Source of the DNA: Lysobacteraceae bacterium
GTDB taxonomy: Bacteria; Pseudomonadota; Gammaproteobacteria; Xanthomonadales; Xanthomonadaceae
Length of the DNA stretch: 64,000 nt
Reading direction: 5' to 3'
NCBI GenBank assembly: GCA_031263725.1
Contig: JAISFF010000036.1
Location: 1-64,000 of the forward strand
Shown: positions 4,843 to 19,074 of the stretch, one piece after another
Numbering within the stretch: the first letter of the stretch is position 1
Layout of the letters: each line of letters opens with the position of its first letter
The notes under the pieces: model-generated
The model's input: the letters and a program-made list of their open reading frames with translations, nothing else
Databases searched by the model: none
Told to the model about the DNA's origin: nothing
Translations under genes and position numbers: made by a program

Positions 4843-6510
4843 ATGACCAAGGCTGGGCTTGAGTTGAGGAATGAGCTGGTTCTTCGTCGTTTCCGCTGGT
4901 GGTTGCCGATCGTGGCGATCCTGACGCTGGGCGCCTGCGTCAAGCAGGACGACGAAGACGCGCATCGGGTCAAACCGCCGGTGATCCTGGTCGAGCCGGT
5001 CGTGCCGGAGACACAGGCCTTGCAGGAATTGCCGCCATTGTTCCAGGACATCCAGAAGCGTACGTTCCAGTACTTCTGGGATACCACCAACGAGCGCAAC
5101 GGCCTGACGCCGGACCGCTATCCTTCGCGGCCATTCGCCAGCATCGCCTCGATCGGGTTCGCCCTGACCGCCTATCCGATCGGGATCGAAAAGGGCTGGG
5201 TCAGCCGGCACCAGGCGACGGAGCGCACGCTGGTCACGCTGCGTTTCCTGCGCGATCTGCCGAAGGGCGGACAGCGTACCGGCAAGGCCAGCTATCACGG
5301 TTTCTACTACCACTTCCTCGACATGCAGGACGGCGTCCGCTACGACAGCTGGGTGGAACTGTCCAGCGTCGATACGGCGATCCTGATGATGGGGGTGCTG
5401 TTCGCGCAGGCCTATTTCGATGGCGACAGCTCCGAGGAGCGGGAGATCCGGCAGATTGCCGATACGTTGTACCGGCGCGTGGACTGGACTTGGCTGCAGC
5501 AGCGCAGTCCGTTGATTTCGATGGGGTGGTTCCCCGAAAGCGGTTTCATCGAGCACGACTGGATGGGCTACAACGAGGCCATGATGATGTACATCCTGGC
5601 GCTGGGTTCGCCGACCCATCCCGTCAGCCAGGATGCCTGGACCGTGTGGGCGCGCACGTACAACAACGACTGGGGCGTGTATTACGGCCAAGAGTATCTG
5701 TCCTTCGGTCCGATGTTCGGACACCAGTACAGCCATGTCTGGGTCGATTTCCGCGACATCCAGGACGAATACATGCGCGAGCATGGCACCGACTATTTCC
5801 TCAACAGTCGCAACGCCGCGCTGGCCCAGCGCGAATACGCGATCGTCAATCCGATGAAATGGAAGGGCTACGGCGAGAATGTCTGGGGCCTGACGGCCTC
5901 CGACGGACCGCAGCAGACGACGCAGCAATACGAGGGCGAGGAGCGGCAGTTCCGGCATTACTCGTCACGTGGCGCCGGTCTGCGCGAGAACTTCGACGAT
6001 GGCACCATCGCGCCCACGGCCGCCATATCCTCGATCGTGTTCGCGCCGGAAATTGCGATTCCGGCGACGCTGGAGATGCACAAACGCTACGGGGACTATC
6101 TGTACTCCAGTTACGGTTTCCTGGATTCGTTCAATCCCAGTTTCGAATACGACATCCCGCTCAAGACCGGACGCCTGATTCCCGAGAAGGGCTGGGTCGC
6201 CAGCGATTACATCGCTATCGACCAGGGACCGGTTCTGGCGATGATCACCAACTACCAGAACGAATTCGTCTGGAACGTGATGAAGAAAAGCCCCTATATC
6301 CGCACCGGCCTGGAACGCGCCGGTTTCCGGGGCGGCTGGCTGACGCCGGAAGGGCGGGAAGACGAGGAGGATGCGATGAGACCGAAACCGGATGCGGCGA
6401 CCGTCAGGGCGTTGGGCATGGCCGAGTCGCGCGCGTCCGCCGCCGCGGCGCAACAGCAGAAGGACGCGTCGGTGCAGCCGCCACAATCGCGTTCCTCGCA
6501 ACAGCAATAG
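4843..6510 (+). CDS. GH144/glycoamylase-like lipoprotein, probable endo-beta-1,2-glucanase
   Basis: 555-aa predicted lipoprotein of the glycoamylase-like family (PF10091, which includes GH144 endo-beta-1,2-glucanases). A hydrophobic segment ends in LTLGAC with the lipidation Cys at about residue 32. The mature protein opens with FQDIQKRTFQYFWDTTNERNGLTPDR, typical of the family, and contains ESGFIEHDWMGYNEAMMMYIL and SRGAGLRENFDDGTIAPTAA. The C-terminal 60 residues are Ala/Gln-rich. It directly precedes a sugar ABC importer, so it likely cuts extracellular or periplasmic beta-glucan into importable oligosaccharides. The start is uncertain: there is no good ribosome site at 4843, and TTG at 4864 is possible. 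Substrate is inferred from the family. Confidence 0.78.
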   Translation: MTKAGLELRNELVLRRFRWWLPIVAILTLGACVKQDDEDAHRVKPPVILVEPVVPETQALQELPPLFQDIQKRTFQYFWDTTNERNGLTPDRYPSRPFASIASIGFALTAYPIGIEKGWVSRHQATERTLVTLRFLRDLPKGGQRTGKASYHGFYYHFLDMQDGVRYDSWVELSSVDTAILMMGVLFAQAYFDGDSSEEREIRQIADTLYRRVDWTWLQQRSPLISMGWFPESGFIEHDWMGYNEAMMMYILALGSPTHPVSQDAWTVWARTYNNDWGVYYGQEYLSFGPMFGHQYSHVWVDFRDIQDEYMREHGTDYFLNSRNAALAQREYAIVNPMKWKGYGENVWGLTASDGPQQTTQQYEGEERQFRHYSSRGAGLRENFDDGTIAPTAAISSIVFAPEIAIPATLEMHKRYGDYLYSSYGFLDSFNPSFEYDIPLKTGRLIPEKGWVASDYIAIDQGPVLAMITNYQNEFVWNVMKKSPYIRTGLERAGFRGGWLTPEGREDEEDAMRPKPDAATVRALGMAESRASAAAAQQQKDASVQPPQSRSSQQQ

Positions 6511-9518: not shown

Positions 9519-9550
9519 GGAAGCGCGCTTGCGAGCCATTGGCTCGCGCG

Positions 9551-9910
9551 CTTCCGAACGCCCGGCCATGGATGGCCGGGCCGGAGTATCCGGAGCCGAG
9601 ATGCTGCGCCATGGATGGCATTGAGGATGTATGCAGCATGGGAGCGCGCTAGTGGGCACTGCTCGCTGCGCTTCCGAACGCCCGGCCATGGATGGCCGGG
9701 CCGGAGTATCCGGAGCCTAGATGCTGCGCCATGGATGGCATTGAGGATGTATGCAGCATGGGAGCACGCTAGCGGGCACTGCTCGCTGCGCTTCCGAACG
9801 CCCGGCCATGGATGGCCGGGCCGGAGTATCCGGAGCCGAGATGTTGCGCCATGGATGGCATTGAAGATGCATGCAGCACGGGAGCGCACTGGCGGGCACT
9901 GCTCGCTGCG
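9551..9910. repeat. Three tandem copies of a 120-bp repeat with internal palindromes
   Basis: Copies at 9551-9670, 9671-9790 and 9791-9910 are in exact 120-bp register and differ at only a few positions; the third copy is the most diverged. Each begins CTTCCGAACG and contains CCCGGCCATGGATGGCCGGG (9-bp stem, 2-nt loop), then a second hairpin with outer arms ATGCTGC/GCAGCAT and inner arms GCCAT/ATGGC. Another CTTCCGAACG occurs alone at 9961. The period is a multiple of three, so reading frames run through it, but the implied peptides look non-biological. It resembles a REP/BIME-type array lying between the permease and the glycanase gene. Confidence 0.95.
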
Positions 9911-13353: not shown

Positions 13354-13989
13354 TCAATCCCACGAATTCGAATACACATGATCGCGGAACAGCTCAGGCA
13401 GGCCCGATACCTGCTTGAATCTCAGGACTTCGTCATCGTCCATGCCCAGTTCGCGGGCGACATCCGCTTCGCTCCAGCCGGCCTGCAACAGTGTTATCAC
13501 GATGTCGGTCATCGGCAGGACGCCGTGTACGCCGCGTGCCCGGTTGTGGCGGATGGTGGCGGCTACGCGGTCGGCCTCGCTGCTGCGATCGGCGCGAATG
13601 ACAACGACCGGCAGATAGCCACGCAACCGCTTGCGTATGCGCCCGGTCTTTCTGCCCACCCTCTGCCTGTGGAAGCCATCGACGACGACGTATTGCGCAT
13701 CCTCTTGCTGGTGCGTGACGATGGGCTGCGTGAATCCGTCGGTGCCGATGGAAAGCTCCAGCAGCTTCATTTCCGGCGGCGCCACGGTATTGGGGTTGTA
13801 ATCGTTTCCCGCAACTTGCTCGGCAGGTACCCATTGCACGCAATCGACCGGCTCCGCGGCAAACGGGCTGTGTTCACGCAGTCGCAGCCGCAGGCCGTTT
13901 AGGGCTTCTATCCGCTGTGCCAATGGCAGTGCATCGAGTTCCCGGAACAGGGCTTCGGCCCGTTCTATCAGATTTGCTACTTGCGACAT
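13354..13989 (-). CDS. IbrB-like protein with ParB/Srx-type domain
   Basis: 211-aa protein. About residues 50-120 form a ParB/sulfiredoxin-superfamily nucleotide-binding domain (VPAEQV, GFTQPI at about 85-90, VVVDGFHRQRVGR). A helix-turn-helix-like region follows at about 160-197 (TDIVITLLQAGWSEADVARELGMDDDEVLRF). This matches IbrB, the ParB-like partner of the PAPS-reductase-like protein IbrA; the pair was first described as activators of immunoglobulin-binding eib genes in E. coli, and the chemistry is unknown. The start is supported by AAGGAG just upstream. Last gene of the IbrA-like/GNAT/IbrB-like unit. Confidence 0.82.
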   Translation of the reverse strand: MSQVANLIERAEALFRELDALPLAQRIEALNGLRLRLREHSPFAAEPVDCVQWVPAEQVAGNDYNPNTVAPPEMKLLELSIGTDGFTQPIVTHQQEDAQYVVVDGFHRQRVGRKTGRIRKRLRGYLPVVVIRADRSSEADRVAATIRHNRARGVHGVLPMTDIVITLLQAGWSEADVARELGMDDDEVLRFKQVSGLPELFRDHVYSNSWD

Positions 13990-14419
13990 GCGCGCTCCTT
14001 GTCAAGGTGACCCAGTTTCCCCGGATGGATTGAATATGAAAGCCATGCGGTGTGCAGAACGGCGCGCATGTCCGTGGTACGCGCGTCGTGCATGCCAGGC
14101 CTGCATTGTCGATGTGATCGAGAACCTGCCGGCGCAACGCGCGGAACAGTCCATGTCCGCGCGCCTCGACGCGCAGGTAGGCATCACGTATGCGGGCGGA
14201 GTCGGCGAGCAGTTCCACGCTGATGAACCCCAGCACGCGGTTTTCCATTGCGTGACGGACAATGAACCAGCGATGGCGTGGCCCGTCGGTCAATGGATAG
14301 CCTCCGCAATCGCGACGTACCGTGGCACTGGCGAAAAAGCGCCCCATCTGGGCGAAGAATGCCGCTTCGTCATCGAATGACCGAAGCTGTTGGAATTCGC
14401 AATCCTCCAGCCGAATCAT
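13874..14419 (-). CDS. GNAT-like acetyltransferase, C-terminus overlapping the ibrB-like gene
   Basis: 181-aa frame. Residues 1 to about 143 look like a small GNAT N-acetyltransferase: FIVRHAMENRVLGFISVELLADSARIRDAYLRVEARGHGLFRALRRQVLDHI resembles the acetyl-CoA-binding strand-helix, with RGHGLFRAL in place of the usual R/QxxGxG/A pyrophosphate loop. It starts on an ATGA overlap with the IbrA-like gene. The last 38 or so residues are read antiphase inside the ibrB-like gene and look like spurious Arg/Ser/Pro-rich sequence, so the ancestral stop may have been lost. Substrate unknown. Confidence 0.65.
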   Translation of the reverse strand: MIRLEDCEFQQLRSFDDEAAFFAQMGRFFASATVRRDCGGYPLTDGPRHRWFIVRHAMENRVLGFISVELLADSARIRDAYLRVEARGHGLFRALRRQVLDHIDNAGLACTTRVPRTCAPFCTPHGFHIQSIRGNWVTLTRSAHVASSKSDRTGRSPVPGTRCTAIGTADRSPKRPAAATA

Positions 14420-15642
14420 TTGCCGTACTCTCCCTTGGCTATCATCGCCGCCGTATCGCGCTTGGAAAAACTGAATGACAGTGATCGAGCCATGTCCTGT
14501 TTGAGCAACGAAAGCGCCACGCGCCGCCAGGATGGTTGCGCCTTGCGGTTCTCCAGTTCCGGAACGCCGGCGTCAGGCCAGGCCGCAAGCGGATAGTCGT
14601 GTGACGCCCACCAGTTCATGAAGCTCTTGATACGGCGGACATAAACCTGGCGCAGCGTCGACGGCATGCTTTGCAGCAGGAACTGGCTATATTGTCGCCA
14701 GGTGCTGAAGGTCGGGGGCAGGCCCAGTCCGCCCCGATATCCCAGGAACCGTTGTCGGCAGTAGCGCGCCGCATAGTTCGCTCCCTGCACGCGTTTGACT
14801 ACCCGGAACCAAGTTTCGGGTTCCAGACGGTGGAACAGATCCAGTCCTTTGCGCTGATCGTCGCCGTAGGGCTGGCAGATGCGCATCTGCGAAAACGGCA
14901 CGCGCGCCAGATGCATATGGTCGTAGAGCCGGTTGTACGCATGACGGTGCTCGCCGGTGTAGCGCCACAGGTCCTCGAACTTCCAGTCGTAGATGGGGAA
15001 GAAGGTGACTGCACGGCTGCGTGATATGTTGCGGGTACTCCACGGGACGGGCGTTTGCGAGCCGGGCGGCATCCAGGCGCATTTCTTGGATTGCGCACGG
15101 TGTTTCACCGCCATGTAACGGTTCAGAGACTCATCGGAACGTATGCCGACGAGAATTGCCGTCGATACGTCGCGCGCCATCCACTCATTGAATTCCAAAG
15201 AAAATTCCTCGAATTCCATTCGATAGCGGTAGAAAGAAAAAAAATCCTGATCGCTGATCAGAGACGGATGCCGCGGCATCGGCCTGACCCAGTCCTGTTC
15301 GCGTCCGGGCTCCCAGGCGCACCAGAACGGCTCTTGCAGGCTGGATGCGTTTCGCAGATTGATGGGCAGACAGATCCACCACGGACGTACGTCTTTGCGA
15401 TCGAACATCTCCGTGACGTGCGCGATGGTGGACCGGTATTGCGCTTCCAGGTCGATGAAGAACGCATCGACAGGGCCGCGCCCTTCCTCGCGGGCAACTT
15501 CCAGTGCCAGATGCAGCGTGACCGAACTGTCCTTGCCACCGGAGAAGGCTACGCATACGCGCTCGAAGTGCCTGAAGATCAGGCGGATGCGCTCCTTGGC
15601 GGCGTCATGAACGTTGAGATTGCGGTAGCGCTTGCCTGCCAT
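14416..15642 (-). CDS. IbrA-like PAPS reductase-family (DUF3440) protein
   Basis: 408-aa ATP-pyrophosphatase-fold protein. The P-loop motif VAFSGGKDSS lies at about residues 31-40, followed by FFIDLEAQYRSTIAHV, as in PAPS reductase/DndC-type sulfurtransferase relatives. The C-terminal half (YGDDQRKGLDLFHRLEPETWFRVVKRVQGAN) matches the DUF3440 region of IbrA. It starts at ATG 15642 with AAGGAGAG 6 nt upstream. It is coupled to the GNAT gene (ATGA), then to the IbrB-like gene. Family members are predicted to activate a substrate with ATP. No Dnd or Ssp partners are present here. Confidence 0.85.
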   Translation of the reverse strand: MAGKRYRNLNVHDAAKERIRLIFRHFERVCVAFSGGKDSSVTLHLALEVAREEGRGPVDAFFIDLEAQYRSTIAHVTEMFDRKDVRPWWICLPINLRNASSLQEPFWCAWEPGREQDWVRPMPRHPSLISDQDFFSFYRYRMEFEEFSLEFNEWMARDVSTAILVGIRSDESLNRYMAVKHRAQSKKCAWMPPGSQTPVPWSTRNISRSRAVTFFPIYDWKFEDLWRYTGEHRHAYNRLYDHMHLARVPFSQMRICQPYGDDQRKGLDLFHRLEPETWFRVVKRVQGANYAARYCRQRFLGYRGGLGLPPTFSTWRQYSQFLLQSMPSTLRQVYVRRIKSFMNWWASHDYPLAAWPDAGVPELENRKAQPSWRRVALSLLKQDMARSLSFSFSKRDTAAMIAKGEYGK

Positions 15643-16495
15643 GTTGCATCTCTCCTTGCTCGTCGATCATGGGTTTGGCGCTTCTCCTGCTTGACCGGAG
15701 GGGAAACAAGCTTACCGAAGCATTGCGGCGGCAGGAGTGGCAGGCGTACGGATGCCTGTCATGACAAGTGCGGTGTCGACGCGTCCGAATAGTCGTTCGA
15801 TCGCGCCGGAACCACGTCCGCCGAATGGATGGCGAAGATACGGATTGCCCATCGCCGCGCTGCAGGCCTGAAAACGATACCGCTCGATTATAGGTGTACA
15901 TATGCATCGGCGCCAATCTGACAGGTATTGCTGCGGCAGACAACCCTGCATTCTGGAACGGAATGTACCGGCGGCCGATGGGGCATCGTCTGCGCACATG
16001 CGAAGCGGTGAGGTAGGCCGGATTGTGCCGGTATGTACTGCGAAATGCCCCATTCCTGCGCAGCAGGCCTGATTCATAAGCGCTGCGGTTTTGCTGCAAT
16101 TCCATGCCGCCGACCAGGCTTCGCGGCTTCTACAGTATGCGAACTTACAGTTTGATCGGGAACTGCCGGAGATTGAGGCCGTTCTCACGGGAAGTCGGCA
16201 GGTCGGTGAGCGTCAATGCGAATCCTGCCAACAGGACAGGCATGCAAGTTATCATGCAACACCGGAATTCCAATCGATGACAAACCCTCGCCCCACCTTC
16301 GGGCAAGCGCTCTTCAAGAGCGCCCACACATCATCCGTTCGTCCCTGATGGCATCCGTGGATGCCATTCGTTTCTGTATGTTTGGTATTTCATGTCATTC
16401 GGATTGGTTTTGGGTTGCTTTTCATTATGTCTTCTGAATTATCATTGGAATAAACATATTCAGATGTCTTGATTTTGAGTGGGATGTACCAGTGA
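15643..16495. other. 853-bp gap with no intact gene
   Basis: No frame on either strand shows a recognisable domain. It contains the presumed ibrA-like promoter at its left end, an arm pair AGCGCTCTT/AAGAGCGC around 16309-16324, a perfect short palindrome at 16348-16367, and an AT-rich stretch from about 16375 to 16480. Together with the adjacent Lrp relic it looks like eroded, formerly coding DNA. Confidence 0.5.
16348..16367. repeat. 20-bp palindrome (REP-like)
   Basis: ATGGCATCC-GT-GGATGCCAT is a 9-bp perfect stem with a 2-nt loop. Its core resembles the ATGGATGGCAT element within the 120-bp repeats at 9551-9910, so it may be a solitary member of the same repeat family. Confidence 0.5.
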
Positions 16496-16675
16496 AGCTC
16501 CGACGACATTGATCGTCACATTCTGCGCGAGCTTCAGCGCGACGGATGCATTGTGAATACGGACCTGGCCAGAAAAGGTAGGCCCGTCGTCGTCTCCATA
16601 TCTGCGAAGCGTGCGCCTGCTGGAAGATGCAGGAGTGATCGGACGCTATGCGGCGGTACTCAATCCGGATCGATC
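16496..16675 (+). pseudogene. Lrp/AsnC-family regulator remnant (frameshifted, 3' lost)
   Basis: From 16496 the frame reads SSDDIDRHILRELQRDG then IVNTDLARK, the helix-turn-helix opening of Lrp/AsnC regulators. After LARK the frame is lost; shifting by one base gives VGPSSSPYLRSVRLLEDAG then VIGRYAAVLNPDR, which is the rest of the Lrp DNA-binding domain (normally VGLSPSPCLRRVRRLEEAGVI). An in-frame TGA precedes the fragment, and nothing of the RAM ligand domain follows before thiC. So it is a dead N-terminal fragment with a one-base indel near 16575. Confidence 0.8.
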
Positions 16676-16702
16676 GGCGAAAAGGCGACACTGTCATGCT
16701 GG

Positions 16703-18788
<2,086 letters not shown>

Positions 18789-19074
18789 CCGGACAGTCTA
18801 GTGGCATCGGCGAGATTCGGGCAATGCCCGGAAAGGGACAGCGGCGCGTATGGCGGCTATCCGGTTCGGTGTCGGAGAGCTGAGCGAGAAATCCAAGGAT
18901 CGCGGATATCGGGCTGGCGGATCGTTTCCAGCCGGTGACAACCGGGGCCATGGCATCCCCGGATGCGTGGCTGCGCAGGACAGGACGGAAGCGGGAAGGC
19001 GGCGGCATCGTCAGGATCAGATGAAACGCCCGTATGACGATGTGGGAGGCGAATCCCTCGTCATCGCTTGTCGT
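18789..19074. other. 286-bp intergenic region
   Basis: Between the thiC riboswitch and the 3' end of the YhiN-like gene. It must hold the thiC promoter on the minus strand. No gene or clear repeat is seen. Confidence 0.4.

Follow-up and report, generated by a model that had tools for sequence, protein, structure and literature searches.

A GNAT acetyltransferase gene between ibrA and ibrB: a recurrent three-gene cassette on mobile elements

The gene pair ibrA/ibrB is widespread in phages, plasmids and prophages, and its chemistry is uncharacterised. In the stretch of DNA analysed here (the window, 64,000 nucleotides of a Lysobacteraceae bacterium), a gene for a GNAT-type acetyltransferase lies between the two. 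The locus raises the question of whether this third gene is a true partner of the pair and, if so, what the three proteins might do together.

The cassette and its three proteins

A sequence-only reading of the window had proposed a PAPS-reductase-fold protein with DUF3440, an acetyltransferase and a ParB/Srx-fold protein, and all three ORFs were found where it had placed them, as intact, overlapping minus-strand genes in the order ibrA, GNAT, ibrB (15642-13354). The IbrA-like protein (P0001, 408 aa; 14416..15642, minus strand) consists of a PP-loop/PAPS-reductase-like domain and DUF3440. The GNAT acetyltransferase (P0002, 181 aa; 13874..14419, minus strand) has a core of about residues 1-145, and the third gene encodes an IbrB-like ParB/Srx protein (P0003, 211 aa; 13354..13989, minus strand). 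An ATGA start/stop overlap joins ibrA and the GNAT gene (14416..14419, minus strand), an identical junction being present in 16 of the 34 triplet loci, and the GNAT and ibrB frames overlap by 116 nt (13874..13989, minus strand), as also occurs in relatives with 181-aa GNATs. The genes had been described as fused into one translationally coupled unit. Fusion is ruled out by the separate, overlapping ORFs, and coupling stands in so far as the overlapping frames are consistent with it. The arrangement goes beyond chance because the gene order, and often also the ATGA junction, recurs in other genomes. A candidate sigma-70-like promoter (TTGGCG-18-TATAAT; 15887..15916, minus strand) was located ~245 bp upstream of ibrA by consensus match only, and the match is no better than shuffled expectation.

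P0001 matched PAPS_reduct (PF01507, E = 2e-16) and DUF3440 (PF11922, E = 5e-26), both above the Pfam cut-off, together with phrog_2302 (E = 5e-80), and it aligned over its full length with 71 relatives. Across these 72 diverse IbrAs, the PP-loop SGGKDS (residues 34-39) and the GIR(S)DES motif (GIRSDESLNR in the window protein, 166-175) were invariant or almost so. Among the cysteines, C256, which lies in the motif RICQPYGDDQR of DUF3440 (254-264), was near invariant (71/72), and C91 was common (63/72). In structure comparison, the predicted model (pLDDT 86) was nearest to the PAPS domain of FAD synthase, APS/PAPS reductases and CysD (Z 13-15); the nearest folds to the model are thus those of enzymes forming or using adenylated substrates (adenylated sulfate/FMN). 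Some IbrAs (L014 3995-5380; L117) have a C-terminal extension, VRKSVKPVYAYLRKQYQAYL..., that is absent from the window IbrA. The IbrB-like protein matched phrog_2159 (E = 2e-67) and, below the Pfam cut-off, ParB_N (E = 6e-5). Its conserved boxes are NDYNPN, DGFHR and TIRHNRARG, and its C-terminus is helical. It thus retains the DGxHR box, which is predicted to bind nucleotides; we take its DGFHR to be comparable to the DGQHR of DndB.

The assignment of P0002 needed other checks because Pfam barely recognises this protein by itself (best E = 0.008). Most members of a family alignment of 33 relatives gave clear GNAT matches, and the AlphaFold model of P0002 calculated with the family alignment has a GNAT fold with a pLDDT of ~96 over residues 1-140, for which Foldseek returned ordinary GNATs such as ElaA, RimI and NatD. 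In the family alignment, R87 and G90 of the acetyl-CoA motif RxxG are conserved at >90%, and the motif, of the RxxGxG/A type, ends in F instead of G/A. By its model, P0002 has a standard GNAT fold and is a predicted acetyltransferase; its last ~35 residues (from ~147), encoded in the ibrB overlap, probably form a disordered tail. The cassette GNATs are a separate subfamily, with the alignment signature FF/FY..MG.FFAS..VRRE.GYP..D....W. Nothing pointed to a Mom-type GNAT as in phage Mu: none of the 33 GNATs matched the Mom-like phrog_1384, which had no match in the genome either.

Other features were noted in the window. Between the cassette and thiC, an apparent AsnC/Lrp-type regulator remnant (16435-16700, plus strand), read across frames as DRHILRELQRDG...NTDLARK...RVRLLEDAGVIGRYAAVLNP, is probably a decayed gene, and a TPP riboswitch lies upstream of thiC (18666-18790, minus strand; Rfam RF00059, 68.7 bits). 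A 120-bp tandem repeat (9522-9910; 3.2 copies, 93% matches) is located between transporter and glycosidase-like genes and was found at the same place in the relative L192. Sequence reading also identified a type VI secretion gene cluster (23520-45411) with DotU/TssL-, TssK-, TssC-, TssF-, TssG-, ClpV-, TssM- and TssA-like ORFs.

Recurrence, co-divergence and mobility of the triplet

When viral contigs were searched with IbrA, the same triplet was recovered in L006 (identity 73% for IbrA, 56% for GNAT and 74% for IbrB), along with further loci that have a GNAT-sized ORF between ibrA and ibrB. A wider IbrA search yielded 80 viral and 80 cellular loci, in which the three proteins were then scored by HMMs. 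The GNAT gene was located between ibrA and ibrB in 33 of the 148 distinct ibrA loci with ibrB, the window included, and upstream of ibrA in one further locus (L013). It adjoins ibrA in every triplet locus, and the loci span about eight phyla as well as several phage contigs. The named carriers are Achromobacter, Bordetella, Serratia, Pseudomonas aeruginosa PA7, Dyella, Lysobacter, Sphingomonas, Pseudothauera, Dactylosporangium and Streptomyces, accompanied by MAGs labelled Acidobacteria, Desulfovibrio relatives, Synergistota, Armatimonadota, Bacillota and Deltaproteobacteria. The neighbourhood survey thus bore out the expectation that the GNAT is conserved with IbrAB. In the reverse direction, GNAT queries of the viral contigs returned five loci, all with the order ibrA-GNAT-ibrB; four of these contigs were known already through IbrA or as near copies (L175 and L020 are the same contig), and L176 was new and divergent. 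The single P0002 sequence found no relatives among the viral contigs, and tblastn with the window's own GNAT gave no match in named phages and plasmids. A Rhodovastum plasmid reached via IbrA does carry a divergent GNAT, and these blanks in phages and plasmids therefore reflect divergence. Among 369 genomes of the class, with up to ten candidates scored in each, the GNAT subfamily was detected in the window genome only and ibrA in two. IbrA/IbrB homologues are abundant, with matches in 594 records of plasmids and 211 of phages, and the earlier statement that IbrA and IbrB are phage-associated and biochemically uncharacterised was supported.

The GNAT is missing from most phage and enterobacterial ibrAB loci, and close relatives of the window cassette also lack it (L093, with 80% identical IbrA, L104, L113 and L114). 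The GNAT is thus dispensable, being found in a minority of ibrAB loci and missing even among close relatives. Its presence and absence on the IbrA tree requires at least 10 changes, gains or losses, on the starred branches. E. coli genomes gave only partial matches to the Serratia cassette DNA, none spanning the cassette, and the ten matches listed were annotated IbrB-like. In L114 (Aureimonas), a different ORF of ~95 aa occupies the gap between ibrA and ibrB (~5073-5360) in place of the GNAT. The order of the pair itself is not fixed in phages: L041, L048, L050, L059 and similar phage loci have ibrB upstream of ibrA, at a distance of ~0.4-0.6 kb that is filled by other sequence. Just upstream of ibrA at L018 (3600-3998), a conserved small protein, MKASLKIEAIGDD...GRKDYTHSNRKGSRGVFVHYLLESGY, was observed; it recurs in 24 viral or cellular ibrA loci, L018 counted, and is possibly another optional partner.

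Where the GNAT is present, it diverges with its neighbours. In 33 triplets, the pairwise distances of IbrA correlated with those of the GNAT (r = 0.89, Mantel) and of IbrB (r = 0.88). The dN/dS of the GNAT core was 0.05-0.33 in seven pairs, and below 0.3 in six of the seven. The GNAT is thus under purifying selection and co-evolves with IbrA. Recurrence in other loci and purifying selection rule out a pseudogene or local oddity, a possibility that the sequence-only reading had set beforehand as one that would count against it. Co-divergence, selection, GNAT queries that find only triplets and a signature of its own together indicate that the GNAT is a dedicated partner.

The cassette moves horizontally: it is absent from 59 relatives of the window genome and present in prophages and plasmids; the lone ibrA match in one of these relatives (9e-4) was a short PP-loop match. 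In L006 and L106 it lies between prophage tail genes, and by sequence reading it is near a conjugative ATPase in L096 and near an integrase in the GNAT-less close relative L104. In phage loci it is located beside an SNF2-type helicase, and phage copies of ibrAB without the GNAT belong to replication/recombination modules that also encode primase, YqaJ and RecT. The flanks of the window cassette showed no clear repeats of the kind that mark a mobile element, and a fixed empty insertion site was not found in the relatives searched, where the flanking thiC and glycosidase gene are not close neighbours. At three GNAT-positive loci, the adjacency to defence genes is suggestive: the Rhodovastum plasmid triplet is flanked by MzaB/MzaC and, on its opposite side, by type IV Cas5/Cas7 together with a CysH-like protein, the triplet of an Acidobacteria MAG neighbours a retron III-A RT and PRTase, and the Sphingomonas triplet has an LmuA-like neighbour. 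The neighbours in most cellular loci were unremarkable, and a PADLOC search of 105 neighbouring ORFs gave mostly scattered single matches, of which those to DpdJ and BrxH are probably general helicases. The window cassette itself gave only weak partial matches to PADLOC models (DndC, BrxP and two others).

A candidate modification pathway and its rivals

From the observed sequence and fold evidence we infer, tentatively and at somewhat under an even chance, a mobile three-enzyme operon for an ATP-driven modification by IbrA that is positioned by IbrB and completed by GNAT acylation; the activities, the order of steps, the substrate and the biological role are all part of this reading. The PP-loop of IbrA (SGGKDS) would cleave ATP to AMP and PPi, adenylating or activating the target. 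IbrB, with its DGxHR box intact, would bind nucleic acid through its ParB/Srx fold and position or gate IbrA, and the GNAT would transfer an acyl group from acetyl-CoA to the product, a new amine or thiol being the likeliest acceptor, or else to an intermediate of the pathway. IbrB and the setting of the phage copies among replication genes make DNA or a nucleotide the most likely substrate. Such a cassette would serve to mark or mask DNA, for self-marking or anti-restriction, or would be directed against other elements; as it encodes no restriction partner, there is no evident restriction-modification cycle. A narrower proposal, possible but doubtful, is that the triplet makes an undescribed acylated DNA or nucleotide modification, in which a base or nucleotide is adenylated or rebuilt by IbrA, directed to DNA by IbrB and acylated by the GNAT. 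If this were true, mobile elements would gain a new means to mark or hide DNA. The earlier suggestion of a dedicated modification pathway stands to the extent of a reasonable reading, the GNAT being conserved, co-evolving and selected; its other suggestion, a defence or counter-defence role, is hinted at by the neighbours in a few loci only. A dedicated, co-evolving GNAT probably narrows the options for ibrAB to a function that uses ATP and acetyl-CoA and yields an acylated product, and the compact three-gene operon makes that function directly open to mass spectrometry.

Alternatively, the GNAT may modify proteins, by regulatory acetylation of IbrA, IbrB or a host or phage protein, with IbrAB doing the rest without it. 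The fact that ibrAB loci can do without the GNAT fits this explanation, as do the protein acetyltransferases RimI and NatD among the top structural matches, GNAT fold matches being unspecific. However, the window GNAT matched no protein-acetyltransferase family model above cut-off, and co-divergence is equally expected for an enzyme acting on small molecules or nucleic acids; since both roles predict it, sequence cannot separate them, and we regard the protein modifier as unlikely. A regulatory function, with IbrAB co-activating the expression of prophage genes and the GNAT as an accessory of a regulatory cassette, is improbable. IbrA and IbrB were historically annotated as prophage co-activators, the source of the ibr name, and the E. 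coli K-12 homologues ybdNM adjoin the gene of the LysR regulator CitR, which represses them (PMC9068703), but the PP-loop catalytic motif, intact in 72 diverse IbrAs, would be needless for a pure co-activator, and the settings, from phage replication modules to plasmids, have no regulated neighbour in common.

The neighbours described above (Mza with type IV CRISPR on a plasmid, retron III-A and LmuA) and the position of L006/L106 between prophage tail genes, typical of morons, would suit a stand-alone anti-phage defence system on mobile elements. Such neighbours occurred at just 3 of ~26 cellular or plasmid loci inspected, however, the cassette has no recognisable effector (nuclease, toxin) and falls in no PADLOC family beyond weak DndC similarity, and many phages carry ibrAB themselves; this makes a defence system quite unlikely. 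Least probable, and by our estimate very much so, is a sulfur-assimilation or sulfonucleotide side pathway serving auxiliary metabolism. The IbrA fold resembles PAPS reductase and CysD, and a phage AMG annotation exists, but the sole near-invariant cysteine, C256, lies in the DUF3440 motif, the DndC-like cysteine set is not conserved and the partner of IbrA is a ParB/Srx protein and no sulfur enzyme. An ATP-driven modification with acylation by the GNAT is the reading we prefer.

Relation to known systems

The ibrAB pair is known already; for the triplet with GNAT, no published description was found in the open-access literature. The window genes have full-length homology and the same order as E. 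coli ibrAB (K-12 ybdN/ybdM; COG3969/DUF3440 and ParB-like), with the PP-loop domain preceding DUF3440 and ibrB downstream on the same strand. The window IbrA shares ~41% identity with enterobacterial plasmid copies, and the E. coli and Klebsiella ibrAB copies inspected are without GNAT, whereas the window pair has it in between.

Dnd/Ssp phosphorothioation likewise combines a PAPS-reductase-fold enzyme (DndC) with a ParB-family protein (DndB). The cassette differs in being small and in having a GNAT, and DndD (TIGR03185) had no match over cut-off in the genome; DndE (TIGR03184) had none in the genome, and its control gave no match anywhere either. C280 of DndC is needed for its [4Fe-4S] cluster (PMC11662687). 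The DndC-type [4Fe-4S] cysteines are not conserved among the 72 IbrAs; with only C256 near invariant and C91 common, a DndC-like [4Fe-4S] enzyme is unlikely. These results, the missing DndD and the cysteine set, rule out Dnd membership.

In Dpd and BREX-related capture (BRC) systems, a ParB-like ATPase or a GNAT is tied to DNA modification (PMC12839542): the ParB-like ATPase DpdB takes part in inserting preQ0 into DNA, and candidate DNA-modifying BRC systems include GNATs. GNAT/TGT modules and DpdB are both treated in this survey of BREX-like systems from 2026, in whose text IbrA was not found. Unlike Dpd/BRC, the cassette is without a TGT homologue, PglZ or a translocase.

The Rhodovastum atsumiense plasmid RHOApd (RefSeq WP_150041046.1 and neighbours) carries a locus for which no description as a system was found. 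Its order DUF3440-GNAT-hypothetical-ParB comprises the same families in the same order, and its GNAT matches the subfamily HMM with E = 1.5e-28. Unlike the window cassette, it has an additional ORF of ~90 aa separating GNAT and ibrB, its ibrA is preceded by an HTH gene, and Mza and type IV CRISPR are its neighbours. The CysH-like protein associated with type IV CRISPR, of which one lies beside a triplet locus, is likewise an uncharacterised, plasmid-borne member of the PAPS-reductase family; it has 265 aa and, beside Cas genes, is without the ParB and GNAT partners that accompany IbrA in the cassette.
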